From: Moniliella sp. 'wahieum'
Taxonomy: Eukaryota; Basidiomycota; Moniliellomycetes; Moniliellales; Moniliellaceae
Length of the DNA stretch: 64,000 nucleotides
NCBI GenBank assembly: GCA_003971905.1
Contig: RSEE01000081.1
Span: forward strand, 248,001 to 312,000
Direction of reading: 5' to 3'
Part shown: piece by piece, positions 12,711 to 47,670 of the stretch
Layout of the letters: every line of letters starts with the position of its first letter
How positions within the stretch are numbered: the stretch's first letter is position 1
Notes under the pieces: model-generated
What the model was told of the DNA's origin: nothing
The model's database searches: none
What the model saw: only the letters and a program-made list of their open reading frames with translations
Translations under genes and position numbers: made by a program

Positions 12711-12828
12711 TTAGTACTAGGTTCGATAGCATCATCATGTAGTGAGGGTATAGACATTCAGACAAGAACGCGGGCATGCAAGATAAAGCAGCGATCCCAC
12801 TGTTGCATGATGTGCCTGCAACGCCCTG

Positions 12829-16440: not shown

Positions 16441-16570
16441 CGCCTTCGCAGCCTTCGCAACCTTCGCAACCTTCGCAATCTTCGCAATCTTCGCAGTCTT
16501 CGCAGTCTTCGCAGCCTTCGCAGCCTTCGCTTCGCAGTCTTCGCAGCCACAGTCTTCGCAGCCTTCGCTT
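16441..16570 (+). repeat. 9-bp minisatellite, CTTCGCARY unit
   Basis: About nine near-perfect tandem units of TTCGCAGCC, TTCGCAACC, TTCGCAATC and TTCGCAGTC, then shorter or interrupted units to about 16570. It lies just outside the right edge of copy A, between the two duplicated segments. The period of 9 differs from the 7-bp arrays elsewhere. One frame reads as SQP/SQS repeats, but no start or gene context supports coding. Confidence 0.85.
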
Positions 16571-17589: not shown

Positions 17590-18232
17590 CGAGGAGTAGG
17601 AGCCGCGTACGTAGGTCGTAAGACTAATTGAAAGGGGTCCAGCTGTACAGGACCTTCGACGTTGCTCTGTTCCTCGCGGCGTTACCACACTCGGTACGCA
17701 GTAGTATAGGCGGGAACAGATAGAGTCTTAAAGAAGAGCAAGCGACTGATAGTAACCGTGGCTTGCAGAGTGGTCGACGGAAGTCGTAAATTCGTAAGCG
17801 TAAGGGTGAAGCTTGAAGAGGAAGCTTGAAGAGGGAAGTCGGGGGGAAGACGGGGTTGGGCGGGGAGGATCACCGCCAGCAATAAGCCTCAGACCGGCTG
17901 CTTATATACCGTAAATCAGAACAGGCATCAACGTTCAAACAGAAGGAAGGGGATCTACAGTAGTAAGAGGTAAAGGGCGGCCTGTGCTGCCCAGACTGCG
18001 ATCCGGTGGGCCGCAGTCGATGTGGGGTTCTGTCAAGATCGGGCGCCGCAGATACGAAGCTCCGTGCCATTAAGTCAGGTCCTCTCCTGGCCCTCTGCGA
18101 AAATATCCGTGGCAAGTTATCTGTGCTGACTCTTACTCGCAAGTGTCGCGGGGCTGGCGTGGATTCGATGAGATCGAGTTCTACGAAATGCGGGGATCGG
18201 CGTCTGGAGATGACCGGAGCGCCCCATAACAC
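17590..18232 (-). mobile_element. LTR-like element (B), minus orientation
   Basis: Inverted-orientation homologue of 12120-12710. On the minus strand it shows ATCTTGACAGAACCC, CTTTACCTCT, TATATAAGCAGCC (TATA at 17908-17901), TTACGCTTACGAA and GACCTACGTACGCG in the same order. The two LTRs point toward each other, so they are not the pair of one element. Its outer edge coincides, within a few bases, with the left boundary of segmental copy B, which suggests a role in the rearrangement. Ends are approximate. Confidence 0.55.
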
Positions 18233-19128
18233 CATACCTTTTTGAAGGCATTCATTTCCAACAAAGACACCCCAACGATTCATCGTGCGCTTGACAGCAA
18301 TGTGCTGATGCGTGTTCGAATACCCGCACCAAAGCCTCCCTATCTCACGCGCGACGTAATACGTCCCTTCTATGATAACTCATCAACACTGGAAAGGGCT
18401 CAGTGTAAGTCCACATGCTAATAGTACTAGAGACAAACACTGCCTTCGTTTTCTAGTCCGTATCATACGACTCAGCGTATAGCAGTTGGAGATGTTAATG
18501 AAAGGCGGTAAACGGGAGCAGAAGGAATCAAAAGATGAGTCCGTGTTTTCCGAGTGCAGGAGGATCTGAATCAAAACACCCGGAGAACAAACGGGTGGTG
18601 AAGAGGGATGCGACATTCAACAGCAGCAGACGGTGTCGGAAACAGAGCCGGGCCTTGGCTCTGTACAGATAGCGAATAGAAAAAAAGTATCATCATCGTC
18701 AGTAAAGTTGCGCGGGCGCTGGGGTGAAAAGTGCAGTGATGGTATGGACAAACTGACGGGGCAAAAATGACAAGACAAGGACAAAGACAACCTTTCGTAT
18801 ATGTCCTCCCACGTAGTAAGCAGGCATACCCATTATAGATCCCATCCCGCTTTGCCCACGGCCGCACACACCAAATTCCGACCCAGAGTAAGACAGCCTA
18901 CCCACCTCTTTTGTGAATCATGCATCAGGAGCAACCACAGGAGTGGCATCAATGTATCAACCCAAAATATGGCGATACAGATGTAGTATGGGGGGATCGT
19001 ACCAATCCAGCTTGCCGCCGTTCGTCCAAACCAAACGAGAAAGGTCAGGAACAAGGATAAAGCATGTGGGGAATACGGTGGTGTGGTCGGGGAGAGAGGC
19101 GGTGCATGAGAAGCGTTCGCCTGAACGC

Positions 19129-19648
19129 TTACGCACTGCCCGGGGCCTTGACCACCGCAGCGACACACTCAATCTCAATGCTAACGTCCAGGGGAACGGG
19201 CAACCTCGACGGCGGAGCGGGCAGGCTTGTGGCCTTCAAAAGCCTATAGGCAGCAGGAAGACAACAGTCAGCGAAGGAAGGGGGGAGGCAAATTAAAGGG
19301 CATATGAGGTCATATGGTCATACGAAGGCAGAAACGTACTGCTCGTATACAGCATTGATCCGCTTAAAGTGTTCCATGTTCTTGATGAACACTGTCGTCT
19401 TGAGCACCGACGACTTTTCTGCCCCAGCAGCCTTCAGGACAGCGAACAGGTTCTTGAACACCTGCTCCGTCTGTTTCTCAATCACCCCCGGCGCCGAAGC
19501 ATCGCCCTCGCCACCCTCAACCAACTTGCCCGTCTTCGGGTCGAGGGGATGCAGCCACATAAGCAGTCTGCGTGGCCTCATGCACAATGACCTGCGAATA
19601 GGGTCCCAAAGCGGCAGGAGCGTCGGGGGTGCTGTAAGCGGTAGGCAT
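19129..19648 (-). CDS. RidA/YjgF/YER057c-family imine deaminase
   Basis: RidA-family enzymes hydrolyse reactive enamine/imine intermediates released by PLP enzymes. The start at 19646-19648 gives MPTAYSTPDAPAALGPYSQ, the standard RidA N-terminus, then IPLDPKTG-like LDPKTGKLVEGG, QTEQVFKNLFAVLKAAGA, VFIKNMEHFKRINAVYEQY. The intron 19244-19335 (GTTTCT donor, CTATAG acceptor, 92 bases) joins in phase to FEGHKPARSAVEVA, followed by PLDVSIEIECVAAVVKA and a stop at 19129-19131. The Arg of HKPARSAVEV is the usual substrate-binding position. Two small frame errors are visible: near 19555 (about two bases short in GG and CCCC runs) and near 19190 (CT lost relative to the remnant in copy A). No clear mitochondrial presequence, so a cytosolic Hmf1-like form is preferred. 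Confidence 0.85.
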
Positions 19649-20828
19649 GTTGGGAAACAGCGTGGAGAGCAAGGCAACAGTGGTGGTGGTTGTAAACACG
19701 GAGATCTGTCATGCCCAGAATGGCTGAGCGCCACGTCCGTGCGGCGGACGCGCGTTGCACCGAACCACATGACTCACTAGTCTTACCGGTAACCGTTACC
19801 GGTAACCTGGGCTCTGAGCGGACCCTTTGAAACGCACACGCCCAACGCGAGTAAACACTTCAAAGGGATGCGGCAGGAGAAAAGTACAAGACCGGTGGTC
19901 CGGTGATGAGCGGTGCAAAATCTCTATCTATTGGGTGTCCAGAAGAGGAGGTTTTCAAGACTTGGGCAGAAAAAAAGATAATAATCAACCACATTGAAAA
20001 AAATTAGGACGCCCATGTCGGGTCGAACGACGCAGGGGTCGAACCTGCAACCTCCTGATTACAACTAGTCGTAGTCAGACGCGCTACCATTGCGCCAGCC
20101 GTCCTTGGTGCGTAAGTCCACCCCACACTACAAGTAACAAAATGTTACCACCGCATGCATCATATCATTTCCGGAACTGTGAACACTATTGCGCCTATCA
20201 GACTCTTTCCTTCGACGTGTATTGTTTCTCGTGCCAACCCATTCAAGGCTGAAAGATGTGACTCGCCAGCAGACCAGGATCCTCTGCCTCCCTGATTTGC
20301 TTCCAAATGGAGTGATGAGAATGGATACGGATCTTGTCAAGTGTAGAGACTTGTGTGCGTGAGCGAAGAGATGAATCATCTCCACTGAAGGAAAGAGAAG
20401 CTTCCAACACTTACATATCCTGTTGATCATCTTGGTAGCGTAGTAGAGCCCGCGCGTTGCCTTGGCCGGAGGAAGAATGACTCTTGAGTGCAACTACCAA
20501 CTTTCCAAATGTCAAGGTGTTTCCCGAAGCCTAAAACCCTCCATACACTTTCTTTTCACCGTTTGCACCATTTCTGAGAGCTGTTTGTATATAGTGGAGG
20601 CCATTTATGGTGTCTCCATCAGTATAGAGATATACAGAGGAGGAAGGATGGGAACAACAAGGTCAAAAGCAGCATGAGCATTCAACAATTGAGGGTGTGG
20701 GTAGTAGGTTCGATAGCATCATCATGTGGTTCACATCATTCATGTGGAGAGGGTATAGACATTCAGACAAGAACGCGGGCACACAAGAGAAAGCAGCAGC
20801 GCTTCCACTGTGTACCTCGCAGGCCCTC
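19649..20828. other. Intergenic region around tRNA-Arg
   Basis: Apart from the tRNA, no gene is seen. GGTAACC/GGTTACC words form a palindromic cluster at about 19784-19808. From about 20700 the sequence matches copy A again at 12718, which marks the right end of the interval lost from copy A. Confidence 0.5.
20024..20104 (-). tRNA. tRNA-Arg(ACG) with a 9-nt intron
   Basis: Cloverleaf on the minus strand: acceptor GGACGGC pairs with GTCGTTC (with G-U pairs), D-arm GCGCAATGGTAGCGC, anticodon stem TCTGA/TCAGG with loop CTACGA-A interrupted after position 37 by the intron CTAGTTGTA, T-arm GCAGG-TTCGACC-CCTGC, discriminator G. The mature length is 72 nt. A Tyr(GTA) reading would need a non-canonical intron position and a 6-nt loop, so Arg(ACG) is preferred. 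The corresponding position in copy A is occupied by an LTR-like element. Confidence 0.88.
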
Positions 20829-23086
20829 TCAGCATCCTCCACATCCACCACCGCCAACACCGCATCCGCCAGCACCTCCTCCACAGGCACCTGCTCCACC
20901 TGCCACGTTCCCACACCCACCAGCCGCGGAGCACGAGGAAAACCCGCCCACAGCACTGCAGCCACTCGCACCACAGGAGCCTGCGGCCACAGCTCCGCCA
21001 CAGGTCCCAGCCACGCACGCTCCCAAACTTCCGGCGCCCATGGCAACACACGCGGGGTTGCCTGCGTACATTCCCGAGTTGGAACCTGCAGTGATACATG
21101 GATCTGGGTAGTAAGGAGCGTAGTAGGGCATGTAGACAGGATAGACTCCCCACGCCATAGTCGCCGCTTCATCATTGGCCAGAGCACGCTTCTCGTTGCA
21201 TCTCTAGTGAGCAGACCGCGTTTGTGCAGTCGCCGTTGTGCCGCTTCGGCCTTAGAGACGAGACGACGATGCCGGACTGCTTCACCACGTACCGCTGCCT
21301 GGTCCCCTTCGGTGGACACGGCATTGTGGGCAGAAATGTGGGCGTTGCGCTCGGGATGGTTGTGGTCGATGTTGGGGTTAGAATGGAGGGCGTCCGCGTT
21401 GACCCGTGCCTGGAGGCAGTGGACGAGGAAAACAAAAGCGCTGGTGACACACGGCTTGTTTGGCTTTCACGCACCGCCTCACAGTACCAGCACGTACACT
21501 CTGAGTACGGCTGGCCATTGGTCAAGTTGGCATAGCGCTTGGATGTGAGCTCAAATGCATCGCTCAACCGACCCGAGGCGACTTTATCATCATGGTTGAT
21601 CATCCGCTTCATGTGATGCACCGTGTAGCAGTAATACCGTGCCGGGCTGAGTTGGTGGGTGTGCCAAGCCAAGTCCACGTCCAATGTCGGCACCGCCATG
21701 GAACCAGGGTATTTCTTCATGATTTCGAGAAGATGGAATACTTGGCAATCAACCGCGCCATCGTCTGCTCCAGTGCCGGCGAATGCAACCAATCAATCTC
21801 ATCCATCTTGCACACAAACGTGCCTTGGCGCAACACTGCCCCCACCAAGTCCAACCCAAACGGAGACGAATTTTCCCAGTACCGTGACATCATTGCCCGA
21901 ACCCCCACACGCCGGGCAACTGCCACCTCTCGTTGACCGGTTTGGAACCTCCAACCACTCGTACGATCATCCGGTTGGCACACGTCAGCTCCATCTGCTC
22001 CCGCACCTCCAGCATGGTCAGGTACGGATTGGCGTCAAAGTTCACCTTTTTCTGCAGTACCTCCAGCCCGTGTAACAACAGATGGCTCGCGTACGATTGG
22101 CTCATCACCGTCAAAGGATGGTGGGGCGGACGACCGTCGTAGGAAAGAATGGTACGGGCATAGCCACATCCGCGCTTACCAGTTGGCTATAGTCATACCG
22201 GAACTTGGCTACACGCAGCGTATCGTGCGTGATGTGAAATTGCACGAGGTACAGTCGGTGGTTAGGTTGGTATCGGTAAACCCGTCCTTTGCGTCAAACC
22301 ATGGCTTGGTCAGCTCGCCCAGGGGGCCACCAGTGGCCCATGGAATCTCTTCCTCCCGCTTGCAACGGGGACACTTGATCTTCTTCCCACCCTGGTCGTC
22401 TTGGTTTCGCCAGGCACGGCCGGTGGCCCGGGGGAACGCGTCGGCAGCCTCAGCAGAGGGAAGGTAATCGAGCGATCGTTGATGCACTCATCAATCAGGG
22501 CCCAGGGAAGCCTACATTCCACACCCGCATGTGGCCTGTACGAAGACAGTCTTCGAGGTAGTTGGTGGGTTGAGGCAAATGCGTGCCAGACCATCAGTAC
22601 ATCCAGCGGGGGCAGATTTTCCCTGCTCCACAGCGGTGGGTCCGAAGGCGACTTGGTGTTCTTCATCGCATCAGCCAAACCTGTGGTTGAGTCAACCAGG
22701 TCAACAGTGATCGCTGGGCCTGAGGATGGCAAGCAGTTCTTCCAAAATTGCTCAAACCGATCGGCGGCGCGTGCCACATAAACGGACCAGCGCTTTTCCC
22801 GCATCAGGGCCAGACCCTTGCTTTTATCCTCCTCCTTCGGGAATTGGCTCAACACGTCCTCGTCACGCAGGCCAAACAGACCATCAATATGGGCAATCGA
22901 ATCGCGCAAATCGGCAAAGACAGCGAGCAAGCGCAAATGAGCGACACACTCGTCGGACGTGACAGTCTGTGTGGTGTCGCTGGCAGCGATGTGGGGGAAG
23001 GTGCGCTGATAGGGGGTGTAGGCTGGTGGGGCCTCGCCTAGGCTGGGGGGCGAGGGGGGGGGGAACACCTTCTTGTCGAACGGCAT
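20829..23086 (-). CDS. GRDP-like (DUF1399) protein, copy B
   Basis: Paralogue of the 12829-15090 gene with the same domain order and nearly the same length. Start at 23084-23086 (MPFDKKVFPPPSPPS), stop at 20829-20831. The N-terminal third reads through cleanly to ENLPPLDVLMVWHAF, where copy A is broken, and then loses frame at about 22570 where copy A is intact. The Cys motifs (KIKCPRCKR, TDCTSC), the VDLAWHTHQLSP signature (about 21690-21650) and the Gly/Cys-rich tail (GGCGVGGGGCGGC) are all present. Other breaks lie near 22200, 21950, 21740 and 21210. Complementary lesions mean that neither copy reads through as given; base-call error and recent decay are both possible. Confidence 0.7.
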
Positions 23087-26000
23087 ATTGCAGCAGCAGT
23101 GTAGTGAACCTAGTGTAGAGGCGAGTGACGAGATGCGGTATGCGAGGTTGCTGAAGATGGTGAAGGGGAAGGGCAGGTTGGTGTGTATGGGGGGGTGTTG
23201 GTAGCAGAGGGGAGAGAAGAGCAGCGAGGCACCCCCGAATTTATGCGAGCACGGAGGGCTGCAGGAGCGATGCCGTCGGAGTTGAATGGCCGGCGCCAAG
23301 CATGGCAACGTACAAGAGACAGCTGGGAGGAGATCACTTCGTTGGGACAGTATCTCTCTGTGCTCGACATGTGCACACGTTGCGTGTTACGGGTGATGTA
23401 GTGACGGGCGCGGCCTGAGATCTCTGAGATCTGATATGGCGTTCTAGGTGAGTGGTGAGTGGTGAGTTGCTTCCAGCAGGGGGGGGTCGAACGAGTGCGC
23501 TCACCAAATTAATCGATCTTCATAGCTTCATAGTCCTTGGGCAGGAGGGAGCAGTGTGCGTTTGGAGAGACACCAGCGCGACGAGTGCCGGACGTGACCG
23601 GTGACCCTGTGCGACCTGTGACCAGCGACCGGTGACTGGGTGAGACCTGGGGCCTGGGCTGTGAGACAGCAGAGCGCGAGGTGAACCGGGGACCGGTGAG
23701 GCCTGAGTCCTCCTGAAGCCTGAGGCCTGACCGGTGACGGCAGTGCTCGGTGCCTGAGACTGTGAGTACGATGTCCTGCCTATAGTACTCACTGAACTGA
23801 GTATTGGGACTGAGTACACTGAGTGTGTACTGAGTATCCGAGTAGCAGAGACGCAAGCATACGATACGGTGCACTCGCTTACCTCGCCCATCTCCCTCTC
23901 TTCAGGTTTCTGGCCTCAGGGCCTCAAGGCCTCAGGGGCCTCATCGACACCGCACTGGCATCGCCCAACGCGCACCCGCTACCCGACCACAGCTTCGTCG
24001 ACATGTGGTCGATGATCGATGATTGATGACGTCGATGACGTCTACCGGGAAAACAGTCATAGGACCGGGCCGGGGGGCTGTATCTTGGTCCGGTCTGTGG
24101 CCGCGAGCAAGTGGGCGCGGGAGAGCCCGGGTGGCCGGTGACCTCACCCTCCCCGCCGCAGGAACGAAGGAGCGCGAGCGCGAGGAAGCCGAATAGCGCG
24201 AATCGGATATCTGAGGCCAGCTCTACCCCCTGTGCCAGCTCCAGCGACAGATATGTGCTTTTTGCTGAATGTTAGACTGCGTCGTTAACACGCGTTGGGG
24301 CGTTCGCGTTACAGGCTACATGAGCATGATATCAGCACATCTGCTGCATCCCTCTTTCAGTACGTGTCTCTGTCCGCTCCGCCTTGCGGGGTAGACAGGT
24401 CGCTGTAAACATTGCGGGCCGTGGAATGCCGAACGCCGCGCATGGCACACAGCTGATGCACTACACCCGGGTGTTACTATAAACGCATTCAAATTTTACC
24501 CGATGCGGTTCCCCTCGCGCCTAACTTCCCCCTGCTAGAGCAGGCTACGCCCTGAGGTTCAGCGCTGAGGCTCAGCGCTCAGCCTGAGCCCGCTCCCGTG
24601 ACCCATGTCAGAACATATCAGCCGAATACGCGCCCCTGGCCAATTGGGTTCAATTCGCATTCGATCCGTTCGTTTCCGGATCAAGTTTCCCCTAGGTAGA
24701 GTAACCTGCAGAGCAACCTCTACACCTGTAGCATGTGGGTGAACATAATGAACGTTGATGCAGTACGTTGATGCATAATGTGCAGTCAAGGGAGCGTCTC
24801 ACATGACGTCACGCGTCACGCCTTACACGTTAGTACGCACGATTCTCGTCGTGCTGGTGGACACGGCCACTGCAGGCAGGAACAGGCCTCCAGGCGTCGG
24901 TCACAACATATGCCCCCCCCCCCCCCCCCCCCCGCCCAAACAAAGCAGAAGCTTGAATTTGAAGCCTCAGTTTCACCTTATGAATGAAGTCCACCGGTTA
25001 TTCTATACCACCGTTCTTATTTCCCCTCTCTCGGGCCTCCGACGACCATCAAGAAAGGGAAAAGAAAGAGGAAGCAATCCTGCACAAGGCTGGGTCCAAA
25101 GCTATGATGGAATGCTTGAATGTGTGCCTGCGGGCATGTTGGAAATCACGGTACAAGACAGTGTGGACTTGGAACATATGGTGGGCGGTGATATATGATA
25201 GACGATATATATATGGAAGAACGGTGTGGACTATAATGTACGGGAAACTGAACTCCCCATCTCTCACAGATCGAGGGGGGTATAGGGTCAACATGATAGG
25301 CTCTTGATGAGAAAAAAGGGATATGTATTCTCAAAGAAGCGGTGGAGCGCCCACCTCATCATCACCAGGGAATCCAACAAAAATGAGAGGAAGAGAAAAG
25401 AGTTGAATCCCTGCCAATTGCATTCTATCTTTCCCTTTGGACCTTCGTTGTTTACCCAAAAAAGGATGGAGAAGCATCGGTACCAAAAGCTGCCACAGTG
25501 GTGGGACGAAGCGGCCCTCTAGAGTTAGGATATATACCGACATCTTCTTTTTCAAGCATTTTAAGGTGCGAAGAGTTCGTATCGCGCCCAAAAAGCACAG
25601 TGGTACTGCGTTACAACAGATGAGATGCACTCCCTATTTACCAGTTTCGAAATGGGAAACGCCCTTCCCCTTCCAAGAAAACGATGATATGTTGTGCAAA
25701 TTATCGTCACATCTACAAGAGCACACCCTCCGAGAGCAAAACAACTTCCGGCGGTGGCACCGTGGAAATGAACGGGAAGACAAAAGTAAGGGCGACCCTC
25801 TGTTGTCTATACTGCGTTGTTTTGAATTCCCTCTGTTGATAACAGGAGAATGGTGTACTACTACTACTACCATGTTCTCATCTGAGGGTCACCTATACAC
25901 AGAGAGTTGTATTATATATAGTGCCCTATTCCTTATCATCTCTCAAGCTATAGTTGCCCCATCTCTCACTATTCTCAGCTATAAAAAAGCTGATGAGGCC

Positions 26001-26362
26001 AAAACGGCCTCGCCGACAGGCCAGAACGGCCTATGGGTTTCTTCCATACTGGATGAAGCTTGAAAGTGAGAATGGGTGTGGAACAGCGTGCTGCGCTTTT
26101 GATGTGATGGGCGACTGTTGATGCTGATCTATACAACGCACAAACGTGATTGTCCACTATACTTTTAGTTTTGTCCATTTGCGAAATGGCACAAAACAAT
26201 CTTTTTGCAGTCTATGGTTCCTTCTCTCGACTTTAATTAAGGCAAGAATCGGAACAACGGACGCAGTATGCATGCCGCCGATGAACAATGTCACTGCCAA
26301 CTTGGTGAAGTCACGCACAGCTCGATCCAAAGAAGGAAAGTCGCCTTTATGGGCAAAAGAGG
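23087..26362. other. Intergenic region, more AT-rich, with a poly-C tract
   Basis: The part to about 24630 is the non-coding flank of duplication copy B (period-7 and CCTCAGG-type words near 23590-23760 and 23905-23945). A 21-base C run lies at 24913-24933. From about 25000 to 26250 the DNA is visibly more AT-rich; one plus-strand open frame (25437-26063) shows no family motif and I do not support it as a gene. Confidence 0.5.
25995..26032 (+). other. Two tandem GGCC hairpins with matching loops
   Basis: GAGGCC-AAAAC-GGCCTC at 25995-26011 is a perfect 6-bp stem with a 5-base loop. Seven bases later (26018-26032) AGGCC-AGAAC-GGCCT repeats the design with a 5-bp stem and a loop that differs at one base. 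It lies in an AT-rich gene-free stretch, right after GCTATAAAAAAGCTGATG. Function unknown; it could act as an RNA structure or be chance. Confidence 0.4.
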
Positions 26363-26457
26363 TGCTTCAAAGGGGAATCGAACCCCTGTCACATCGATGT
26401 CTTAAGAGCAACAACGCCCTGCTGGCAACGATGTAGTATACCACTAACCCTTGAAGC
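26363..26457 (-). tRNA. tRNA-Gly(GCC) with a 25-nt intron
   Basis: Cloverleaf on the minus strand: acceptor GCTTCAA pairs with TTGAAGC, discriminator A; D-arm region GTTAGTGGTATAC; anticodon stem CATCG/CGATG with loop TTGCCA-T, interrupted after position 37 by 25 bases; T-arm AGGGG-TTCGATT-CCCCT. The spliced anticodon arm matches the usual fungal tRNA-Gly(GCC) form (CGTTGCCATCG). The mature length is about 70 nt. Confidence 0.88.
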
Positions 26458-27592
26458 TTGATGTATACGTATTGGTATATTGTTTTGGGGGCAGTTTCTT
26501 CTATCTCCTGGGTAGTTACTCGATGACGACTGACTGCCATCATCCTGAGGGATAATCATGCAAACTTGTCTTGGCAATATGAACACCCCAAGCAGTTTCC
26601 AGCATGTTTCGACGGACGTAGCTCGCGAGGATATGCGAATGAGCGTGTGGCAGACATCCGAGTGGTAATAAAACGCGTAGAGCGTATAGTTCTATTCAAC
26701 TTTTCTCCGACGTACTTATAGCACGCGTGCAGCCCTGCCGGCGCTGACAGGACGCGTGAAACGGTGGCTACGATGGCTTAGCACGACCAGCGGAACGGTG
26801 GAGGGAAGACGGTGGAACGCGCACCCAATTGAAGCCGAGCATAGATCCAGTGGTCTTCTACTTAATCATATATAGTTAGAGAGGGTTCATGCAGCACTCA
26901 CATGCTGTCCTGCCGCGCTCATTAATCTCATTTTCATACTATATCCAACAACACTCCTGACTCAGGAGTCACAGCCTCAGGGCATTGATGCATTCTATTT
27001 CAAGCCGAATGGCGGGGGTGGCAGAAGATCCTCTGACCTGCTGGCGACGCCACAAAAGAACTTGGTTTGTTGATCGTGTGGTACTCACCACAAACTATTA
27101 TACCTCTCACATGTCACAGGAATACTACTGCTACTACTATACTGGTAAAATGATATAGGACGGAGAAGGGGTCGATCGTCGCTTATGCGGGGAAAACGCC
27201 ATTTTCGTCGACTCAGTACTCATCCGGCTTGGGCCACCTGACGCAGCTATGAGACGCCTGAGACGCGTGAGACGCGTGAGAAAACTAGGAACAGACGCAC
27301 CAAAAATCATGTCAATCTTCTCCCACATTACTATTCCCCTCTATACTCTATACCCAATCAACCAGCACACGGAAAGAGAGCTATATGTGCTGAGAGGGGG
27401 GGATGATCGATGATCGATGACCTCTCGATACGGTTATCGAAAGCTTGATCGCCATGACCGGAACTACTTTTTGATTTGAAACAAGTTTATATAAAGGGTG
27501 TGACCCGTACAACTGAAAACAACACCCCAACCACCACCCACCCCACCACCCCACCACCCCCACTCCACCACCACAACTCACTACCACCGTCG
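26458..27592. other. Intergenic region upstream of the helicase gene
   Basis: No gene is recognised. It has a short GACGCGTGA-type patch near 27255-27280 and two perfect GATCGAT-based heptamers at 27405-27418. A C/A-rich stretch of CCACC repeats (about 27520-27585) immediately precedes the helicase start and is probably its leader. Confidence 0.5.
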
Positions 27593-31893: not shown

Positions 31894-33814
31894 CTGGGGA
31901 AGAAAGGGGTGGCGGGTGGTGGTGGTGGTGGTGTGGGGCAGGAGGGAGATGGATGGCCCGCGACTGAGTAAAGTGGGCCCCCTGCCACCGCCCAGCTACG
32001 AGGTAGACCTTATTTTGGGCTCCGCCGCGGCCACGCGACGCGCTTGGGACACTGGCGCCGTGCTGGCTCCTGAGCGCGTCGTTCCACACGCGCCCACTTT
32101 TGCGTGCAGCCCCAACCCTACTGTGCAGCCCGCCCGGAACATGTTGAAAGTATCATTTTGGATTTTGAACATCCACTTCTTGAGCTTCAAGCGCTGCTCC
32201 TGTGCTTGTCGAGTTTTTTGCGGGCGAAGTGACGACCAGTGCTCGCGAGTACTCAACCTATACTCAGTTCGAGTACGAGTGCTGAGTATGTGGAGAGTCC
32301 TGGGTATGCTCTTTGGAAGATTATTATGGGGCAGGATGGTTGCCACTTCAACAAAGCTGACTTCATATATTGAGCAGCACAGGCAAGAATCTTTGAAACC
32401 ACATTGTCCAACAAACGCCGACACTTCTGCCGCAGCGCATCACAGCTCCCCAAAGGCATCATTGTTGGCTATCGCGGCGCATGCATAACTAGCTGGGATT
32501 GGGCGTTTGGTTGAGACCTGAGGATCTGAGGGGCAGGATTGTACGAAGGGAATGTCGATGACCATCATTATTAAGCGCTGTTTTGTCTGGCCACAAAACC
32601 CAGTTTTTAGCACAAACTCCAAGATGATCGGGTCGGTTTAGGGATAGCGTTTCCCTGTCCCAGCCTTTTTAAGCTCTGTCAATGATATGGATGCAGTATC
32701 TGGCGGTGGGGCTTGCAGAAACCATATCTTGTGTTGTTTGGACTAAGCACTAAGTAAGTACTAATAATGCATCAGTATACCGGTGTAGTAGCAGAGTGTA
32801 GCCTAGTAGTAGTAAATGTAGTCCAACCCCATCTTCACACTCTGGCGGAGCACTCTCGCACTTCCGCGGTGTGTACATCAAAACCTCGTCAGACCGCGTC
32901 ACATAGAGGTCGCAAGCATGTGGCATCTATCTCTCTACTGTCCGTACCATCGAGATGTTACAAATGCAGCACTACTGAGAGTTACAGGCCATCGATCACC
33001 TGGGACACGGAACTACAAAACGTCACCCTCTATAAAACCATCCTCCGCAACAGCTATATCCCCTCTCGAGGTGAGGGTACCCTCTCTATCGTGCGTGTTC
33101 CTGTGCTATATTCCATCCCGTCACTGCATACTACTATAACCCATCCTTTCGGAACCGCACCCTGCCGCGCGTCTCGGCTCATTGCGCCTGTCGGCCCTTG
33201 CCCGGCTTCTCACTCTCGATCAGTGTAACAACTCTTCATTCAAACCTGCCCGCCTAATTCCGGTTCATGAAGTTTGAAGATGTCATTCTTGCAAAATCGA
33301 TTCTTGGGTATAGAGTCGAGATCTTCGTGGTCACATGTGGTGGCCTACACGATGGGCTTTGGGCCGAGGGACAATCGATTGCCCATAATGCCCGTGTTTA
33401 GTATATTTCTATCGCATTCTAACCCGTCCTACCCGCTCTCCCAAGGAGCTACTGGTTATCCCCGCCACCGTCACCAACCTCCCCCGATATCGCTCTTCTT
33501 CCATACGTCGCTACTGCGCCATCACTGTATTACAGAGGGCAACCTTCACCCTGTATAAAATACCAACCCTCTTGCGGAATGGGTTATTGAATCTGTGACC
33601 GAGTATGGGTCTCCAACGTATTACTTAATAGTATGTTGCTGTTAGCGTCTTTGTCGTCAAACGTTCTCCTCCCATACATCCCCCCCTACACCCCTGGCCC
33701 GCGGTTTCACAAAATGTAATCATTCTTCCATCAGATTGGTTAACCTCCTTCGTCTATCGCCCCTCCATCTGATGCCCTTTCCCATTTTCAGCGTTCCCGG
33801 TATGAGTGCGTTAA

Positions 33815-33832
33815 CCCCCCCCCCCCCCCCCC
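33815..33832 (+). repeat. Poly-C tract (18)
   Basis: Uninterrupted run of 18 C. Together with the 21-C run at 24913-24933 and the G run at about 3399-3410 it marks unusually long G/C homopolymers, where read length calls are unreliable. Confidence 0.9.
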
Positions 33833-34252
33833 AGTCCATCAGCCCGTCCCATGCTGCCGCCCTCCTACCCCTATACCCTCAACTCTCATCAGATCAACAC
33901 TTACAATATACGCATCCGTCACTCCCCCATATAAGTCCACACCCTCTCTGGGGCAGTTCATTCTCCGAATGACTTGCCGGATACGTTCGCAGTATAATCG
34001 GACTATGGAACGGCGTATAACGCGTAACGCGTAACGGAGGATGCACCGTTTCTACGGAACCCAAAGCGAGGCGGAGCGACAAACACATGCAACATGCAAT
34101 GCACAACGACTGTGACATGTGACATGTGAACCTATAAACACACCAGGTCGAGGCGAAGGGCTGTTGGTGGCGCTCTGTCGATCATGAAGTAGATCATCCC
34201 ATCCTATTCGTACTCTCGCCACTTCAAGACTTGAAGCTTGACTCAGTCTGGT

Positions 34253-34290
34253 GAGTACTGAGTACTGAGTACTGAGTGTACTGAACGTTG
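34253..34290 (+). repeat. 7-bp array, GAGTACT unit
   Basis: Three perfect tandem GAGTACT units (34253-34273), then a spaced GTACT, then GAACGTTGAAC. Each unit is G plus the self-complementary hexamer AGTACT; the next word swaps to AACGTT. Confidence 0.85.
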
Positions 34291-34503
34291 AACTCAGTAC
34301 GCAGTAGGACTCAGTTGATTACTCATATACTCATTTCCCCTGAGATTAGGGACTAGCCATTGGTCCTCAGGCTGAGGCCTCAGGGCCTCACGCGTCTTGT
34401 GCGCTCACACGCGTCACGTACCCCCACGCTTTTGAAAACGCGACACGCGTAACGCATAACGCGCGTCCCGCGTTAGTACTGAGTTTGGAGTACTTAGTGT
34501 ACT

Positions 34504-34562
34504 GAGTATACGGAGTACGGAGTACGGAGTACTGGTTATTGAGTTACTAGTTACTAGTTACT
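34504..34562 (+). repeat. 7-bp arrays, GGAGTAC then ACTAGTT units
   Basis: Period-7 GGAGTAC words (about 34512-34532) followed by two perfect ACTAGTT units (34546-34559), then a larger palindrome centred on ACTAGT (about 34560-34573). The core changes between neighbouring arrays while the 7-bp step is kept. Confidence 0.8.
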
Positions 34563-35155
34563 GACTAGTCAGTGCACTCAGAACACCCAACGCGCTGACG
34601 TTTGTGACCGTTGATTCAATAGGCAGTGCCGGCACCGACGAAGAACCGACGGAAGCGGGGCTGGCTCTGGAAGCTGGATAGTCGATAGCTGCGCGCATGT
34701 TCGCACAAACAAGTCCAGAATGGAGAAAATGGCAGTGTCGCGCTTCAGTGGGGGTGGTCCAGGGTGTTCTGTTCCCCCATATAACCTGGGTAAACATACA
34801 ACGCGCTCGTGGATGTCAAGCTTCAAAAAGGACATGTATCATGTGTGTCACAAGTCGGCCATTAGTAAGTACAACGACAGGATGGTCGATGGTATCGATG
34901 GCGAGCCTAGCGAGCCTCGCTTGCTGCGAAGGCGAGGGAGGCGGTGAGAGAGGCAGCTTATTAGCGCTTAAAGCCGGAAAAAAGCTGGGGTTTTTGTTAC
35001 GTACAGGGGTCGGATCTCATCCGTTTTGTTTTGTGCCCTTGTGGGCGGCGACTGCAATTGGGAAGGTGCGGCCTGTACTGCCTCCAACGGCACGGGAGGG
35101 GTCTGGGCCTGAATTGGTTCACATGCTACGTAGTGTGAGAAAATAAGATGCACAT

Positions 35156-35183
35156 GATGCATGATGCATGATGCATGATGCGT
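35156..35183 (+). repeat. 7-bp array, GATGCAT unit
   Basis: Three perfect GATGCAT units (35156-35176) and a fourth reading GATGCGT. The core is the self-complementary hexamer ATGCAT. Confidence 0.88.
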
Positions 35184-35570
35184 GGTGTATGATACAATGA
35201 TCGATGATCGCTGAGTATTGAGTCAATGATCAATGCAGCGGTTACATACATTACAGGGATCGGTACTCGGTATGCGTATGAATTTCGAGACAAAGGCATG
35301 GGAGCCGTTATACTTTTGATACACAATGATTGTGACACGGGATGAAGACAAATAGTCATGCATGTCACCGGTTCCTGTGGACTAGCAAGGGACTACGTAG
35401 GGCTGTATCTCATCCATCTGTTTGCCACCCGCGCACCTCCTTTTTATCCGACCTGAGAATTTCACATCCATCGATTCAAGGAGCGATCATCGATTTCATC
35501 GACCATCGATCAGGTATTCGGTGACATGCAACATGCGACATGCGACATGCACGACACGCGATACGACTGT

Positions 35571-35597
35571 GACATGTGACGCGTGACATGTGACACG
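35571..35597 (+). repeat. 7-bp array with alternating cores
   Basis: Consecutive units are GACATGT, then GACGCGT, then GACATGT, then GACACG. All share the frame G-A-four bases-T; the middle four switch between CATG and CGCG, each self-complementary. Just upstream (35523-35550) further 7-bp ACATGCG words occur. Confidence 0.88.
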
Positions 35598-36582
35598 AGG
35601 AGCACGTGACCAGTGACTTGACCGGGTGCCTAAGTGATTAAGTGATTAAGCGGATTTGTGACGCATGATGCATGGATGATTCGGCGTGCACGATGCATGA
35701 CGCCACGTGATGGAGTGGCCATTGAATTATTGAATGCACGCGCTGCGACAAGCTGCGCCAACTGTGGCTGCTGTGGCGTTTTTGACCCTGTCGGCTCGTT
35801 AGGCATCAGGCGTTCCGCGTTCCGTGTTCCGCGTTCTGCGTTTAGGTCCTAGGATTCGGTCTCGGTACTCGCCAGGACATCGCAGGACTTGCCGCTGGCT
35901 CGACGTGCTCAGGCTTAGCACTGACCGGCTGACCGCTGTCTTTGGGTTTTAGCTTGGGATTCGGTAGGGTACTGGCCACAAGCCTACGGGACAAGCTTCG
36001 AACCTGGGCCCATCGCACTACATACATCTCGTCGAGCCGTGAGCGCGTGAGCGGAAGGGCCTCAGCGCCTCAGCACCTCAGCGCCCCAGCTGACCTCAAA
36101 TTTGGAGGCCAGAGAGACGAGGATGAGATGGATGAGTTCCCAGATCTGAGATCGATCATGTATGAGGCCGAGGGAGCCTGGATGAGGGGGTACACTGTCC
36201 CCATACTTACGCCCCCTCCACCAATTTCCCCCAAGAAGATGATCGATGATCAATACATCGATGAAACGCGTGGAATTAAGCGCTAAGCAGGTACCGCAAC
36301 GCGTAACGGGCGTAAGCCTACCTGCGTAAAGCCGCTGTCGGCCCACGCAATACATTCCTACCCTTTTCGGCCCTCTGCAGTCCCTAGTACAAGAGCCCCT
36401 TGCGCCTTTGCCTTACGCTGGAACCTGAGCTCCTGTGCCTCCGGTCTTATCGATCTTATCGGGCTTAGCGGTTAGGCCTTCGGCCTTCGGTCTGACCGGC
36501 TCACTCGCCATCGCTAACCCACTTCTCGATTCTTCCCGGTTGTACGCGGCAAGCGCCCCCGCGGTACATCATGGGTAACTAT

Positions 36583-36617
36583 GTAACTGGTAACCGGTAA
36601 CCAGTAGCCGGTAGCCC
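36583..36617 (+). repeat. 7-bp array, GTAACCG family
   Basis: Five consecutive 7-bp units with one or two differences each: GTAACTG, GTAACCG, GTAACCA, GTAGCCG and GTAGCCC. The phase is exact over 35 bases. The second unit boundary creates ACCGGT. Confidence 0.88.
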
Positions 36618-36990
36618 GTTAAAAAGCAGCGTTCAACAAATTTCCTTGGCCCACGGTTCTCTTTAGACTCAGACTCAGATCTCTGTTTTCAGAATCTCAA
36701 CAGTAATTCAAAGTTGAACACGTTGAACATATTAAACTGCACGGACTGAACGTACTGAACGGTAACATCGCAGGGTCTAGACGAACTAGGGTCCCGCTGT
36801 TCTTGGTGCCGTATGGATCGACGCCTGGCATCTACATCCCATGCTGCATCTGCTACATGCCGCCAGCTGCGAGGAACAAGTGCGCTCAGCCCCTCAGGTA
36901 CTCAGGGACAGCACTGCGACAGCTGGCCAGTTTGGGGAAGACGTGAACTGGCAGCTGCTGCTGCGCCAGGCTGCACCTGTAATTTCAGCG

Positions 36991-37018
36991 GTTCAACGTT
37001 CAACGTTCAACGTTCAAC
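36991..37018 (+). repeat. 7-bp array, GTTCAAC unit
   Basis: Four perfect GTTCAAC units, equivalent to AACGTT plus C. The same word recurs at about 1029, 16290 and 37035. Confidence 0.92.
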
Positions 37019-37395
37019 GTGCATGAAAGAGGAACGTTGAACGATGGGACGTTGGCACGTTCAGATCGTGCTTCGAAGACCCAAGTCAGGCCCCTAACAT
37101 GCTAACACTTAAACGCGCCTCTGGGCTTAAGCGGTCTGCGCGGATGATCGATGAGGTCGATGAGGCCGAGTATCCGTCCAGCGCCCATTCCCTTGGTAGC
37201 ATGCACCGCGTTACGCTGCACGCGAACTGCTGAGCCGCAGTGCCTCACCGCCCACTACCTCGCAGGTCCCAGGCTTCAAGCTTCAGGCTGAACAAGAGGC
37301 CTATGCGCCTATGCCACGATGGGTAGTGTTCTGATGGGGGGTGCCCCTGACGCCGCAGCCTGGCGCAGCCCGCGCTCAGGCGCTCGAACTCAGTG

Positions 37396-37437
37396 CTTCA
37401 AGCTCCAAGCTTCAAGCTGTAAGCTGTAGGCTGTGAG
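37396..37437 (+). repeat. 7-bp array, CTTCAAG to CTGTGAG gradient
   Basis: Six consecutive units drift step by step: CTTCAAG, CTCCAAG, CTTCAAG, CTGTAAG, CTGTAGG, CTGTGAG. The phase is exact over 42 bases. The first three contain the AAGCTT junction; the later ones lose self-complementarity. Confidence 0.88.
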
Positions 37438-37752
37438 TACTGTGAGTCGAGGGACGCGTTGATGGCTGCACAGTGCACAAGTTCATAATCAGCCACGTGT
37501 ACGTTGGTGGCGAAGTTGTTGCCCCCGTCGAACGGGGAGCTTGGATGCCGTCCACTTGGGTACTAGCAGGGATAAGTGGGGCGGACGCAGGACGCGGGAC
37601 GCGTGCCGCGTGAAGCGTGAAGCTTTTGAAAGGGACGTGCGAGAGATCTGATCGAAATCCAGGCGGCCTGGACCGAGGCACGGCCCGGCGCCCAGCCTGG
37701 TGCATGGCTGAGCAGTGGCTAGTGGCTGGGCATTACACGGCCGGAGTTATGT

Positions 37753-37773
37753 GACGCGTGACGCGTGACGCGT
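37753..37773 (+). repeat. 7-bp array, GACGCGT unit
   Basis: Three perfect GACGCGT units, core ACGCGT. A complementary-strand version (ACGCGTC, two units) lies at about 37855-37868. Confidence 0.9.
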
Positions 37774-38202
37774 GATCATCTCGATCATCGTTCATCAATT
37801 GATGCCAACGATTAATGATTCGATGGAATGCGAGCGCGCCAGCATGCATGACTCACGCGTCACGCGTCACGCCTCCCACGCTGAGCCGCTCAGCTCTAGA
37901 TCTCACACCCACAGAGCTAGTGACAGTGACGCTGTGACGAATGTGGTTGAACGTTGATGCGTGATGCATGGTCATGATGCATGATGACTGACAGCACCAT
38001 GCCAGAGAAGCGTTATCAACACGTCAATTGCATGTCAATTCAATATTCAAGCCAGCGCAAGGATATACCCATCCAGACCCCAGGGGAGGCTGGGGAGGCC
38101 GAAAAGAAGAGAGCGTAGAAAGAAACCCCCGCAGCTGGGACCATGAATGCGAAAGGCTTCTTTCCTGTATAGCTAGGATCCTAAAACATGCGAGCAGCCA
38201 GA

Positions 38203-38286
38203 GTTAGCCGTTAGACGTTAGCGCTAGCGTTTAGCGCTTAGCGGTACCGGTTATCGATTATCGGTTGCCGATTGTCGACTGCTAGC
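38203..38286 (+). repeat. 12-unit 7-bp array with changing cores
   Basis: Twelve consecutive 7-bp units in one phase over 84 bases. They pass from GTTAGCC-like units through TTAGCGC, TACCGGT, TATCGAT, TGCCGAT and TGTCGAC to TGCTAGC. Several cores are perfect palindromes (ACCGGT, ATCGAT, GTCGAC, GCTAGC). This is the longest phase-locked array seen in the window. Confidence 0.88.
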
Positions 38287-40351
38287 ATGTCAGCATGTCA
38301 GCGCTGAGGCACAGCGCTCTGCCTGTGGCCTGAGCGCTCGCTCCCACGGGTACCGGGTACGAGTTGCCGGCTGGGGCTGCGTGAATTTAGGCCTGTGCTG
38401 CCCTTTGATGAATTTGCGCACTTGAGACATCTATGATCGATGCCACCCGGTTACGACTTGGGCGTTACGCGTTACGGGTACAACGGCCGATGATCGATGG
38501 TCATGCATCGTGGATTGTTGACCGGTGATCGGGGAGTGACGGGCTACCAGCCTCGGCAACAACGCATGGCTGCTGGCCCTGTTGCTGTGTAAAATTCGGA
38601 AGGCTGACCATGTGCCAGGGGAGCAGCACATGTTCCCGTGTGAGGCAATGCCTGCGTCCCGCCCTGGCACCAGCTCAGCCATGGGGGACACGCGCTGATA
38701 TCGATAGCGCACCTGTCCTGCAGCTGTCGCATGTGGGCGCAGGCAGCAGCGCGCTTGCGGCTGGTGGGTGCGACAGGCTGGCCATGTACGCGGTGCGGCT
38801 GCATGCTGCATGCCCATGCCCCATGCACCATGTCCAAAGAACGGGTGTGCCAGGGTGCGCCACGTCACCCTTCATGCATCACGCTGCCGCTTTCACCGCG
38901 CCCACCTGGACCCCGCAGGCATCCCTGGCACCCCAGGACACACCGCCTGGGACCACGCTGTCTGCTCGATTTACTGTGCCATCGGCCGGTTGTCTTCGAT
39001 CTGCAAACAGAACGAGCGGCGGACAAGATTCCGTGGCTGACACAGCGCTGGTGCGCGGCAGGTGCTTGGCCACAGGGGCTGGCGGCGAGGCTGGCGCCCT
39101 GCCGGGTCGGATTCCGATTGGATCTGGGATGGCGACGAGACAGGGGAGGCGCTGGAGGGTACCCGCCTCAGGCTGTGGGGAAGGGGTTGACGACCATTAG
39201 TCACTAGTCATGCGTCGTGTGTGGCAGTCAGCGGTCCTGTACATAGGGGCGTCGGCCCCAAGATGGCTGCAGTGCCTGCGGTGCGGTCAGTTTTGCCGTG
39301 TGGGACCGGGGTGGTGCAGAGCCACCGACGGCGTGGGGGCGCCCAGGCGCACCGGATGCACCGGGGGGGCAGTGTGGGCTGCGGTGGCGGGCGCCTGCAG
39401 GGGTGGCCGGTGGCAGCGATCGCTTGGTGCGATCAACCGTTTCCCATCGCACGGTCATGCATCCGCCCATCAGCGCTCGGCAGCACCCGCCCCCTGGGCT
39501 GGCACGCTGCTGCGGGGACCGCGGGAGCAAGGCGCAAGGGGTACGTTGGCGCGGGCTCTTGGTCGGTCGGCCGTCGGTGGGGAGCTGCGTCACGCGTCCC
39601 TAACCGCTTCGGCGGCGCACCAGCCTCACACTTGCCCGTCACCGCTGCGGTGGCTGGGACGGTGGGTGCTGGGCAGTGCCGTGCGTGGGGGCGCGCGTGC
39701 TACGTAGGGCTGGTGCGGCTGGCCTGCCTGCTGCTTGCTGCGGGCGTACGCGCTGCTGCCGGCTGCTGCAGGCTGGCACCAGCACTCGGCCCTGGCTGGG
39801 CGCTGCGACGGTTGTGGCCTGTGGTCTGCTGGCTGGCCTGCTGGCCTGCGGACTGGCTGGGGTGTTCTGTCTTGTCTTGCCTGCACTCGGTCCAGCACCG
39901 GCACCTCCTTGCCTGGCCTGCCTACGCTTGTCTTGGGCGTTTCTTCGGTCTTTGCCGCTGCGTTCCATCCGCTCTGCCTTCTCCATCTCGCTTCTCTGCT
40001 GCCTCCGCCCCACCTCCATCCCCGCCGCCTGCCTTCCTGCCTCCTCCTCCGGCCGCTCCGCCCGCTGTGTCGCTCGCTCCCTCCGCCCCACCTCGTCCGC
40101 CTGCTTTCTGCTGCTGTCCCCCCACACCCGCGAGACCGGCTCAGGCACCCCGCCCACCCGCCCTCCCCTTCGCCTTCTTTCGCCGCCCCCCACACGCGCC
40201 CCGCCTCGGCTGCGGGCCCTGTTCTTTCTCCTGCTGCTGCTGCCGTTGAGCCCAGCCAGCCTGCTGTGCCCATTGCTCCTGCCGCTGTCCGTACGTAGCA
40301 CGCCCGATCGACGGCCTGCTCGCGTCACGTCGCGTGTCCGACCCTTCACCC

Positions 40352-45493: not shown

Positions 45494-47670
45494 GGTTGAG
45501 TGAGGTACGGCCAGAGGTGGATGGGTGCGGGAGACAACCTGCTCGGATGTCCCAGGGCCAATAGCCAACCGTGCACATCCGCTCCGCAACCCCACGTTTT
45601 ATTGCGCCGGCTGTTTTCGACACGGTCGGTTGTGGGCATGTTAGGGTTGACCCCTTCTTGGCCGGGTCAACAAGGGTACATTTCAATAGTTGATGATCAT
45701 CGATCTCATCGATTATCGATCAGCCTGCTCCCTACTATGGTGTCTCAGAACCCACGTGTCCGTCCACCACTCCTTTGTGGGTGAAGCTACTATATATAGG
45801 AGCGGTGAAGCTATAGGAAGCAGCGCAGTGGGGGCTTCCTTAAACGTTGTCAAGTAATTGTAACCCATCATTGTATTGTCCACCTCCAAGTTTCGTTGAG
45901 TGCACCAAACTTCACTCTAACATCTCAACCACACTCAGAGAGTGCTTCGGAGGTCTCCACTTTGAGGGCATGCCCTCATATGACAAGGCCGGGGCGACAT
46001 AGTTGGTGACAAACCAGACTGTAAATCGCAGAACGTCAGAGGCAGTTGGGAAGACCTCCTGCTCACATATACGGCCTTTTTGTTGACTGCTGGGACTCTA
46101 TATGTTTACAGCGCCGCAGGGATGCAGCCAAGGCCTGTGTTCCTCTCTCGTTGTGGCCATGATTAAACGCGCCGGATATTACGCCATCAGATTGCCAGGA
46201 TATTGGAACACTGGAAGAACTTGTTGAAGAGTCTCATGATGGGCGGCGTCCATCTGAACGCTCACACAACGCACAACTGCACAGTATCTACCTGCACTAT
46301 ATCTGGTTTAGAAAATTGTCAGAGAGTCCCCCGACCTGCTGTGGTGTCATCACTGGCATCTTTTGAATGAATGGGCACGAGCTGATCACAAAGGCAGACC
46401 GAGCGAGTTTGATGCGGTACATGCCTTGACGGACTCCTGGTTTAGAAGTTTTTCCAAAAACGGTGTACACCTCTAATACTGTTCTATACACTGCCACTAC
46501 TCCGAAGACCGACGGGTCATGCTGATGGTGATGATGCGATGATGAACCAATGATGCCATGTTACATGAGCGGCTCAGAGCGCGCATGAACATACTCACGT
46601 AGAGAACAATACTCTGACCGTTGTTCACGCTGCGCGAGCGATTCGAACACATATTGTCATGCGCAACGTATTGGACTCTGTTTTTTCGCAACATCAGGCA
46701 GTCTTGTATTGCTTTTGTGCTTGCAAAAGTTACTTCTGGATACGTTTGCTCTACTTTGCACGTAATACGTTGTTTTCACTTAAATGTTTGCACATCACGC
46801 AAAAAGGCCCTACTGGCGGATTCAATCGTGTGGCCATTTGTCCGTGCACTCAACAAGACTGAACTCGATTTAATGAATCAAATGACACTACTACTTTGTT
46901 AGGCTTGATGCACAGGGCCCACAGAGAAAACACACACCTAGTATAAAGTCCTTCGGCGGAGCACACAGGTTCGCATTATTGATGATGGGAACCCTAACGA
47001 CGTATGCGAGATTCAATACCCCGCTGTTTTGTGGGGGGCATGGCAGCGGTCAGATACTATGAGTAGCAGCTGCCCTATAGCCTGGCTGGGCATCTGGAAG
47101 AAGCGAAGCACATTCTGCAGACCAACGTAGTGCTGGTGCTAGTGACCAAGCTAGTGATACAAGTGATGGGCGATGGTCCACCTTCTACGGGCAGTCGGCC
47201 AGTCATGTCATGAAGTGACATGTGAAGATGTGAAGCTGGAAGCTTGAAGCTCCCCGGCCAGCGGCCACACACAGACAGGCAGTGCCGCCTTGGCGCCAGT
47301 GCCGACCCATCGTCTTCATCGTCTGGGCACGAGAACGCAGGTGGGGGTGGAAGGTTGCCTCCGATAAGGGTCTTCGGCTTCGTCCGTCGCAGGGAGCCAG
47401 TGACTGTAGCTTGAAGTGATGCATGAGGATGGTCTGACCGATGACTGTCAGGTGACTAGTACGTACTACCGGCTGTAAGCTGCACCAGCCTGGATCTGGC
47501 AGGTGCCGGACTTTTTTTTTGTTCGGCAGTCCGGAACCCACCCTGGGGGCCACCAGCCCAACCATCCCCACTCACCTCCACCACCCATCCGGCGCCAGCC
47601 AGCCCCATCCTTCTCATCCCCCCCCAACCACCTCGTCTGTATCTCGCCGCCCCACCCCTGCCACTGCCCA
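45494..47670. other. Intergenic region between RPL31 and AVT1
   Basis: A shared upstream region for divergent genes. It holds the RPL31 promoter (telobox above), TATATATAGG near 45791, and an AT-richer stretch at 46200-46950 without recognisable coding. GTGAAGCTTGAAGC-type words occur near 47229-47250. A C/A-rich leader (about 47525-47670) precedes the AVT1 start. Confidence 0.5.
45641..45648 (-). promoter_or_regulatory. Telobox (AACCCTAA) upstream of RPL31
   Basis: AACCCTAA on the minus strand, about 150 bases upstream of the RPL31 ATG. Teloboxes bound by Tbf1-type factors are known ribosomal-protein promoter elements in many fungi. Further upstream (about 45689-45722) is a cluster of ATCGAT/GATCATCGAT words. 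Confidence 0.5.

Follow-up and report, generated by a model that had tools for sequence, protein, structure and literature searches.

Short tandem arrays in a Moniliella genome share a unit rule, T-N-A plus a self-complementary tetramer, across many words

The stretch of DNA analysed here (the window; 64,000 nt, C81:248001-312000) comes from the 69.5-Mb genome of Moniliella sp. 'wahieum', assembled in 223 contigs; feature coordinates are positions in the window. Between two divergent predicted coding segments lies a 6.6-kb predicted non-coding interval (32004-38651, delimited by a codon-usage mask) that contains the densest cluster of short tandem arrays. The first-pass annotation of this DNA had described seven-base units, each a self-complementary hexamer plus one base, in which the word varies and the step is kept. 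The arrays that it listed are present where it placed them. Analysis of their units shows that the shared feature is a rule: T-N-A (TNA, where N is any base) joined to a self-complementary tetramer, the A....T palindrome being the same unit read in another phase.

Thirteen exact period-7 arrays in the interval follow this rule. These are TAA-CGCG (34018-34036, also reported by Tandem Repeats Finder), TGA-CATG (34111-34129), TGA-GTAC (34252-34277), TTA-CTAG (34542-34562), TGA-TGCA (35153-35181), TGA-TCGA (35197-35210 and 36238-36251), TAA-CCGG (36589-36602), TCA-ACGT (36991-37020), TGA-CGCG (37751-37775), TCA-CGCG (37853-37872), a second TGA-TGCA (37973-37986) and TTA-CGCG (38462-38476). The interval also holds a mixed in-phase array, ACATGT-G-ACGCGT-G-ACATGT (35572-35591), and arrays with longer units. 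The latter comprise four of period 8, TGA-TTAA plus one base (35631-35650, whose all-AT tetramer breaks the G/C rule described below), TGA-GCGC plus one base (36038-36053), TCA-GCGC plus one base (36059-36074) and TCA plus one base plus CATG (38284-38302), and one of period 9, TGA plus two bases plus TCGA (37148-37165). The second haplotype of the window, found on contig C85 (95.4% identity across 32579-64000), differs at several of these features. A 30-bp gap at 34262 takes out most of the TGA-GTAC array, the TGA-TCGA array at 35197 is longer by 7 bp, corresponding to a unit with one broken pair, and 14, 21 and 14 bp are missing from the mixed array, the TCA-ACGT array and the TGA-CGCG array, respectively. 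Immediately upstream of 37973 the other haplotype carries AACGTT units and the window TGCA-like ones. Ten open reading frames (ORFs) scanned in the flanks of the interval gave no Pfam match over the cut-off.

The periodicity is strong. Between 33961 and 38560, 168 6-mers recur at lag 7 compared with 1.4 in dinucleotide shuffles, while the counts at lags 6, 8, 9 and 14 are 5, 37, 36 and 70. The wider sample consisted of the window and 16 ten-kb stretches picked by position beforehand, ∼0.3% of the genome. It was divided into 98.5 kb of predicted non-coding and 119.9 kb of predicted coding DNA by an annotation-free codon-usage mask, trained on long ORFs, that misses exons (for example ∼2300-3700). 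The 16 other stretches (160 kb) contain 39 pairs of identical palindromic hexamers spaced 7 bases apart, where 0.8 would be expected; the counts at distances 6, 8 and 14 are 1, 2 and 16. Across predicted non-coding DNA the lag-7 signal is 34.4-fold that of shuffled sequence (24.8-fold without the focal interval), the largest excess among lags 2-22 and clearly above lags 6, 8 and 9 (9.6-, 10.1- and 11.8-fold). A strong lag-7 excess confined to non-coding DNA was what the first-pass annotation named as support; the excess is mainly non-coding, and predicted coding DNA, where the leading lags are 3, 6, 9 and 12, retains a 2.9-fold ratio. Palindromic hexamers are enriched in the focal stretch (ratio 1.73) but not in the 160 kb (0.99). 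Head-to-tail copies of a short unit are above chance, as in microsatellites. Among non-coding arrays with two full copies, period 7 is the commonest (104, compared with 94, 59, 25 and 21 for periods 5, 6, 8 and 9) even though chance favours matches at shorter periods, as expected of heptamer repeats.

The composition of the units was derived from non-coding DNA, in which 112 exact period-7 arrays span 14 bp or more; setting aside words that use no more than two letters leaves 104. The A....T form proposed initially was confirmed, as it accounts for 54 of the 57 hexamers repeated at distance 7 compared with 969 of 3498 palindromic hexamers overall. Sorted by first base, the repeated palindromic hexamers number A 50, T 0, C 1 and G 0 in non-coding DNA and A 2, T 0, C 1 and G 1 in coding DNA. 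Read in the other phase, 68 of the 112 arrays consist of TNA plus a self-complementary tetramer, a unit that is self-complementary save one base as in hairpin-forming repeats; 4.7% of random non-coding 7-mers have this form. TNA occurs in 82 of the 112, and 68 of these 82 hold the tetramer compared with 4597 of 31921 random 7-mers containing TNA. The remaining arrays comprise ten with one broken pair, four lacking any tetramer match and 30 without TNA. Symmetry, on which the first-pass annotation supposed that something acts, is indeed present in the unit but is not sufficient, since the equally symmetrical ANT, CNG and GNC forms account for 0, 1 and 0 of the 104 filtered arrays and TNA for 68. 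These 68 arrays, 14-32 bp long, display all 12 self-complementary tetramers that contain G/C and all four bases at N, but none of the four all-AT kinds. The rule describes only 5 of the 23 period-7 arrays in predicted coding DNA.

Three array words, each also in reversed form, and one gapped hexamer pair were counted genome-wide; the counts are of matches, such that long arrays score several times. TGA-AGCT-TGA-AGCT-TGA has 2270 exact matches (1199 + 1071). Its reversal has none and a scrambled tetramer of identical letters has three, showing that letter order matters. The corresponding TGA-ATAT array yields 11 matches; as single ATATAT and AAGCTT hexamers are both common in the sample (35 and 54, respectively), a G-C pair appears to be needed. 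AACGTT is followed by AACGTT 0-12 bases on at 2186 places, compared with 119 for the reversal, and the 68 plus-strand matches listed, all of them on contig C1, are spaced by 7 (40 cases), 6 (2), 8 (2) or 11-18 bases (24). These data show that the rule holds genome-wide for the words counted. Loci of the same genome kept outside the main counts agree. At one picked for its AGCT arrays (L156), 10 of 20 period-7 arrays fit and 1 is GNC; at nine others, five of which (L003-L007) were retrieved through similarity to an array and four of which are L027-L030, 35 of 52 fit, with 1 ANT and 1 CNG. Extrapolation from the 68 arrays in the 98.5 kb of non-coding sample, assuming two haplotypes, puts the total per haploid genome in the region of ten thousand arrays, a figure made rough by clustering.

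The 7-bp step, which the first-pass annotation took to be invariant, does not define the arrays, because there is an excess at lags 8 and 9 as well, and the rule is also obeyed at these periods (by 18 of 26 arrays at period 8 and 12 of 21 at period 9). A fixed step was therefore dropped in favour of a module, TNA plus tetramer with 0, 1 or 2 added bases, of which period 7 is the most compact form. The fraction of arrays that fit is 65% at period 7, 72% at period 8 (18/25 under the stricter filter) and 57% at period 9, compared with 4-9% for random k-mers and 6-11% for shuffled letters. ANT, CNG and GNC versions number 1, 4 and 5 of 26 at period 8 and 1, 3 and 1 of 21 at period 9, but only one array at each period carries such a version without also having the TNA form. 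TNA adjoins the tetramer in 11 of the 12 period-9 rule units. The full module does not fit into periods 5 and 6, where self-complementary tetramers are at the shuffled level (27% and 32% versus 27% and 33%), while periods 10-13 provide 1, 1, 1 and 4 arrays, too few for judgement. In terms of hairpins, the stem is a constant 4 bp and the loop 3, 4 or 5 nt; a 4-bp stem at periods 5-6 would leave a loop of 1-2 nt. The claim that the word changes between neighbouring units survives in a modest form. Different A....T words in non-coding DNA occur 15 times at distance 7 compared with a mean of 6.2 over distances 8-35 (173 in total), and units of different words abut in phase over a common TNA, as in the mixed array at 35572. 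For palindromes of all kinds, however, there is no excess of different words at distance 7 (40 versus 36.0 in the 160 kb), and neighbours seldom switch word. The spacer base is constant in 11 of 11 exact triples.

The accessible part of PMC4692102 describes an excess of heptameric repeats in numerous bacterial genomes and cites a proposed link to the length of DNA held in the polymerase active site. Ordinary microsatellite slippage favouring 7-nt steps, with the words incidental, would be the equivalent explanation for the fungal arrays. The 24-base TGACGCG array is among the matches listed in many bacterial genomes (Bacteroidetes, Nitrospira, Planctomycetes, Streptomyces and others; L036-L155), several times in some bacterial draft genomes. 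In 120 bacterial loci (877,935 bp), with the query word excluded, period 7 (229 arrays) does exceed periods 8 (57) and 9 (36), period 6 being larger still (492). Only 8 of these 229 arrays fit the rule, however, with 5 ANT, 1 CNG and 16 GNC, compared with 68 of 104 in the fungus, showing that the bacterial heptamers are akin by period and not by rule. The words are thus not incidental, which refutes the explanation in that respect, and the rule extends to periods 8 and 9. That 7-nt slippage accounts for the arrays is very unlikely.

Across arrays both base pairs of the tetramer covary through all 12 G/C words, the pattern that base pairing gives. This joint variation, in combination with the requirement for G-C pairing in the stem, loops of 3-5 nt and the whole-unit length differences between haplotypes, suggests intrastrand folding during copying. 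Our tentative reading, which we favour while rating it a little short of probable, is that the arrays arise and lengthen by folding-aided amplification of units, assisted by a putative factor that reads TNA. Neighbouring tetramers on a single strand would pair to form a 4-bp stem closing a 3-5-nt loop that contains TNA, and such a small hairpin, on nascent or displaced single-stranded DNA, could allow the strand end to slip, or to be copied again, over one to three complete units. Foldable units would in this way be multiplied in preference to non-foldable ones, and any chance seed of rule form could begin an array. Hairpin-templated slippage, already listed among the possible causes by the first-pass annotation, agrees with both the symmetry and the size of the loops but leaves TNA unexplained. 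Another cause on that list, a protein binding every seven bases, is conceivable. Hairpin stability as the whole cause was rejected; the mean predicted energies for a tetramer plus three units are −7.35 (TNA), −7.52 (ANT), −9.82 (GNC) and −9.49 (CNG) kcal/mol, and GNC and CNG, predicted to be more stable, are the forms nearly absent from the arrays. The demand for TNA thus does not derive from predicted stability, which suggests that something reads it, either in the loop or next to the tetramer. The rarity of all-AT stems does fit fold stability.

Hairpins with a TNA loop are no commoner than chance outside arrays (10 versus 10.2 expected), as would be anticipated if seeds are random and only copying is biased. 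GNC-loop hairpins with stems of at least 5 bp, outside period-7 arrays, number 41 compared with 20.6 in shuffles of the window and the 16 stretches. GNA loops, which are very stable in DNA, are not enriched. Hairpins at the RNA level were rejected, as TGA and TCA forms occur side by side within a single interval; by eye, G-T pairs account for few of the ten one-mismatch units, which also counts against RNA. The chance-level seeds would also be accounted for by a dedicated enzyme that recognises a TNA-centred hairpin or odd palindrome, cuts with a ∼7-9-nt stagger and duplicates the unit by fill-in. Such an enzyme would also explain the symmetry together with TNA and the unit-length steps, and the allele pair at 26887, with one versus two exact TCA-TGCA copies, is what it would leave behind. 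One-versus-two-copy cases are unpolarised, however, and could have arisen by deletion between short repeats, while a fixed stagger predicts one period rather than 7, 8 and 9. No such enzyme came to light, no search having been aimed at one. We consider this enzyme distinctly unlikely. It is also doubtful that a DNA-writing activity recognises the shape itself, a 4-bp self-complementary stem over T-N-A, and multiplies it, having seeded the extrapolated ∼10,000 arrays.

Comparison of the haplotypes, with substitutions scored from both sides over 17436-27011 and 32579-64000 and gaps over 11508-17394 in addition, revealed whole-unit length polymorphism at individual arrays. Gaps of 14 bp (5) and 21 bp (2) outnumber those of the adjacent lengths, 13 (2), 15 (2), 20 (0) and 22 bp (1), although the cases are few. 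A rule unit is present in each 21-bp gap and in two of the five 14-bp gaps; of the three 14-bp gaps without one, one is inside predicted coding DNA. The nine 7-bp gaps comprise five exact rule units, three with one broken pair and one without TNA. Further array length differences are 16 bp (near 34509) and 15 bp. One-base gaps may be assembly errors, given that EF-1-alpha reads in shifted frames; at L035 (C14:586301-587100) the frame shift is near a conserved stretch, suggesting that small errors remain in the assembly. Elsewhere C85 carries a 5.1-kb segment (∼278803-283941) that is absent from the window at 32579-32580, beside the array-rich interval; it shows no terminal repeats on self-comparison, and its first 90 bases resemble 46211-46301. 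In addition, 12730-15658 matches C85 twice (92.7% and 87.7%), apparently because of a local duplication that distinguishes the haplotypes.

The array words themselves are not conserved, as the haplotypes disagree in 15 of 224 comparisons of array bases (both sides counted), compared with 692 of 20,209 other non-coding bases (3.4%). Conservation above that of neutral DNA, expected of transcription-factor sites, is thus not seen in this small sample of two haplotypes; the outer T and A of units differ in 2 of 64 cases, too few for a verdict. Among 305 comparisons of A....T hexamers, 42 are broken by one base and one site (both sides counted), the array replacement at 37964, is changed by four. 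We think that the arrays are a product of mutation rather than of selection for a word.

Selection is the basis of a further explanation, in which one or several dimeric proteins would bind the arrays as clustered sites in long upstream regions, TNA being the contact common to all and the tetramer forming a symmetric pair of half-sites. The placement of the arrays may speak for it. Repeated hexamers are found at 1.14 per kb in divergent intervals (26 in 22.9 kb), 0.92 in tandem intervals (42 in 45.6 kb) and 0.13 in convergent intervals (2 in 15.4 kb), and 48 of the 70 are nearer a predicted 5′ end compared with 22 nearer a predicted 3′ end. None is within 250 bp of a predicted 5′ end and 2 are within 250 bp of a predicted 3′ end. 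The distribution is uneven, with 50 of 69 non-coding intervals lacking arrays, an unevenness equalled in 3 of 5000 random placements. The sequence specificity of TNA and the occurrence of different words in phase also fit bound proteins. The interval counts, however, depend on our own coding mask, and two intervals (32004-38651 in the window and L015:1668-5714) supply 47 of the 70 hexamers, such that array location should be regarded as a lead only. The mixing of TGA and TCA forms within one interval and the lack of conservation also argue against binding sites. A protein that reads base pairs singly cannot require complementarity of x with x′ and y with y′ over 12 words. On balance binding-site clusters are improbable.

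Several results weigh against folding-aided amplification. The 717 haplotype gaps lack a 7-bp peak (22 of 6 bp, 9 of 7 bp, 12 of 8 bp and 5 of 9 bp), and the existence of such a peak was rejected on these counts; two of the five 7-bp gaps that are exact rule units are all-AT, and the all-AT tetramer TTAA is present in 2 of the 18 period-8 rule arrays. Haplotype differences are unpolarised, so that gains and losses are indistinguishable. The 305 hexamer comparisons include no two-base change that preserves a palindrome; with this and the 42 broken hexamers, symmetry is not under repair, and compensatory palindrome repair was rejected. Predicted folding energy places GNC and CNG above TNA, with ANT level with it, and words with four G/C account for 7 arrays per 173 singles compared with 32 per 333 for those with two. 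Different words in phase are above expectation, which plain slippage does not predict, and the bias to predicted 5′ ends and to divergent and tandem intervals could mean function.

Arrays of the same kind occur elsewhere in the window. A second, smaller cluster (15542-15783) contains period-7 TGA-CCGG at 15542, TGA-GGCC at 15645 and TGA-TCGA at 15769. The third (23415-24583) has period-9 arrays at 23415 and 24025, a period-8 array at 23518 and period-7 arrays at 24009 and 24570. Finally, period-9 TGA-ga-CGCG at 27259 is paired with period-7 TGA-TCGA at 27402 (27259-27420). Lying outside the TNA rule is a long 9-bp array of ∼15 copies at 16442-16568, GCCTTCGCA, and a run of 18 C is found at 33815-33832, near the array-rich interval. 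Matches to EBP2 and Rad10 show the sequence to be eukaryotic, EF-1-alpha carries an insertion that we take to be the opisthokont one, STE3 matches are present on two contigs and TTAGGG is seen at several contig ends. IFT57, the one family of its kind searched, had no match in the genome. Taken together, these features hint at a fungus that lacks flagella and is represented by two haplotypes, possibly a basidiomycete. The actin family gives 69 matches across many loci, several scoring near conventional actin, which is above our expectation for a fungus.

Repeat classes are usually defined by their word; here only the rule persists, revealing the features to which the underlying process responds. 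These would be self-complementarity, a G-C pair in the stem, and a 3-5-base spacer with T-N-A within it. The arrays open to direct test the long-standing question of whether the growth of particular short repeats is decided by DNA folding, as one genome offers many natural examples, built-in controls (ANT, CNG, GNC, scrambled and all-AT forms) and two haplotypes. If a TNA-stem writing activity did exist, the arrays would represent a repeat class set by grammar and not by sequence. No prior report of the TNA rule was found in the open-access literature searched, which is weak evidence of absence, and we know of none.

The arrays nevertheless resemble several known systems in part. CAG/CTG and CGG/CCG repeats change length by whole units, with hairpin slip-outs thought to be the intermediate, and are alike in having an odd period and a unit that is self-complementary save one base. 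They differ in having period 3 and C-G about the odd base, while the fungal arrays have period 7-9, many words, T-A in that position and short lengths. Bacterial heptamers (Xanthomonas GGGAATC, Nostoc GGGGA(T/C)T and the Calothrix heptanucleotides) share the 7-bp unit and are likewise short, intergenic and variable among close relatives, but, as far as the accessible part of PMC4692102 describes them, consist of one or few words per genome; the fungal word is free under the rule, with 12 tetramers and four N, and periods 8-9 are used too. Quasi-palindrome (template-switch) mutagenesis, as presented in the accessible part of PMC3820800, is similar in that intrastrand pairing guides copying, but it predicts two-base compensatory changes, in contrast to the fungal haplotypes. 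The repetitive extragenic palindromic (REP) sequences and bacterial interspersed mosaic elements (BIMEs) covered by the accessible part of PMC2817692 are also non-coding, palindromic and present in many copies; members of those families have one common sequence, whereas the fungal arrays share TNA and nothing beyond it.

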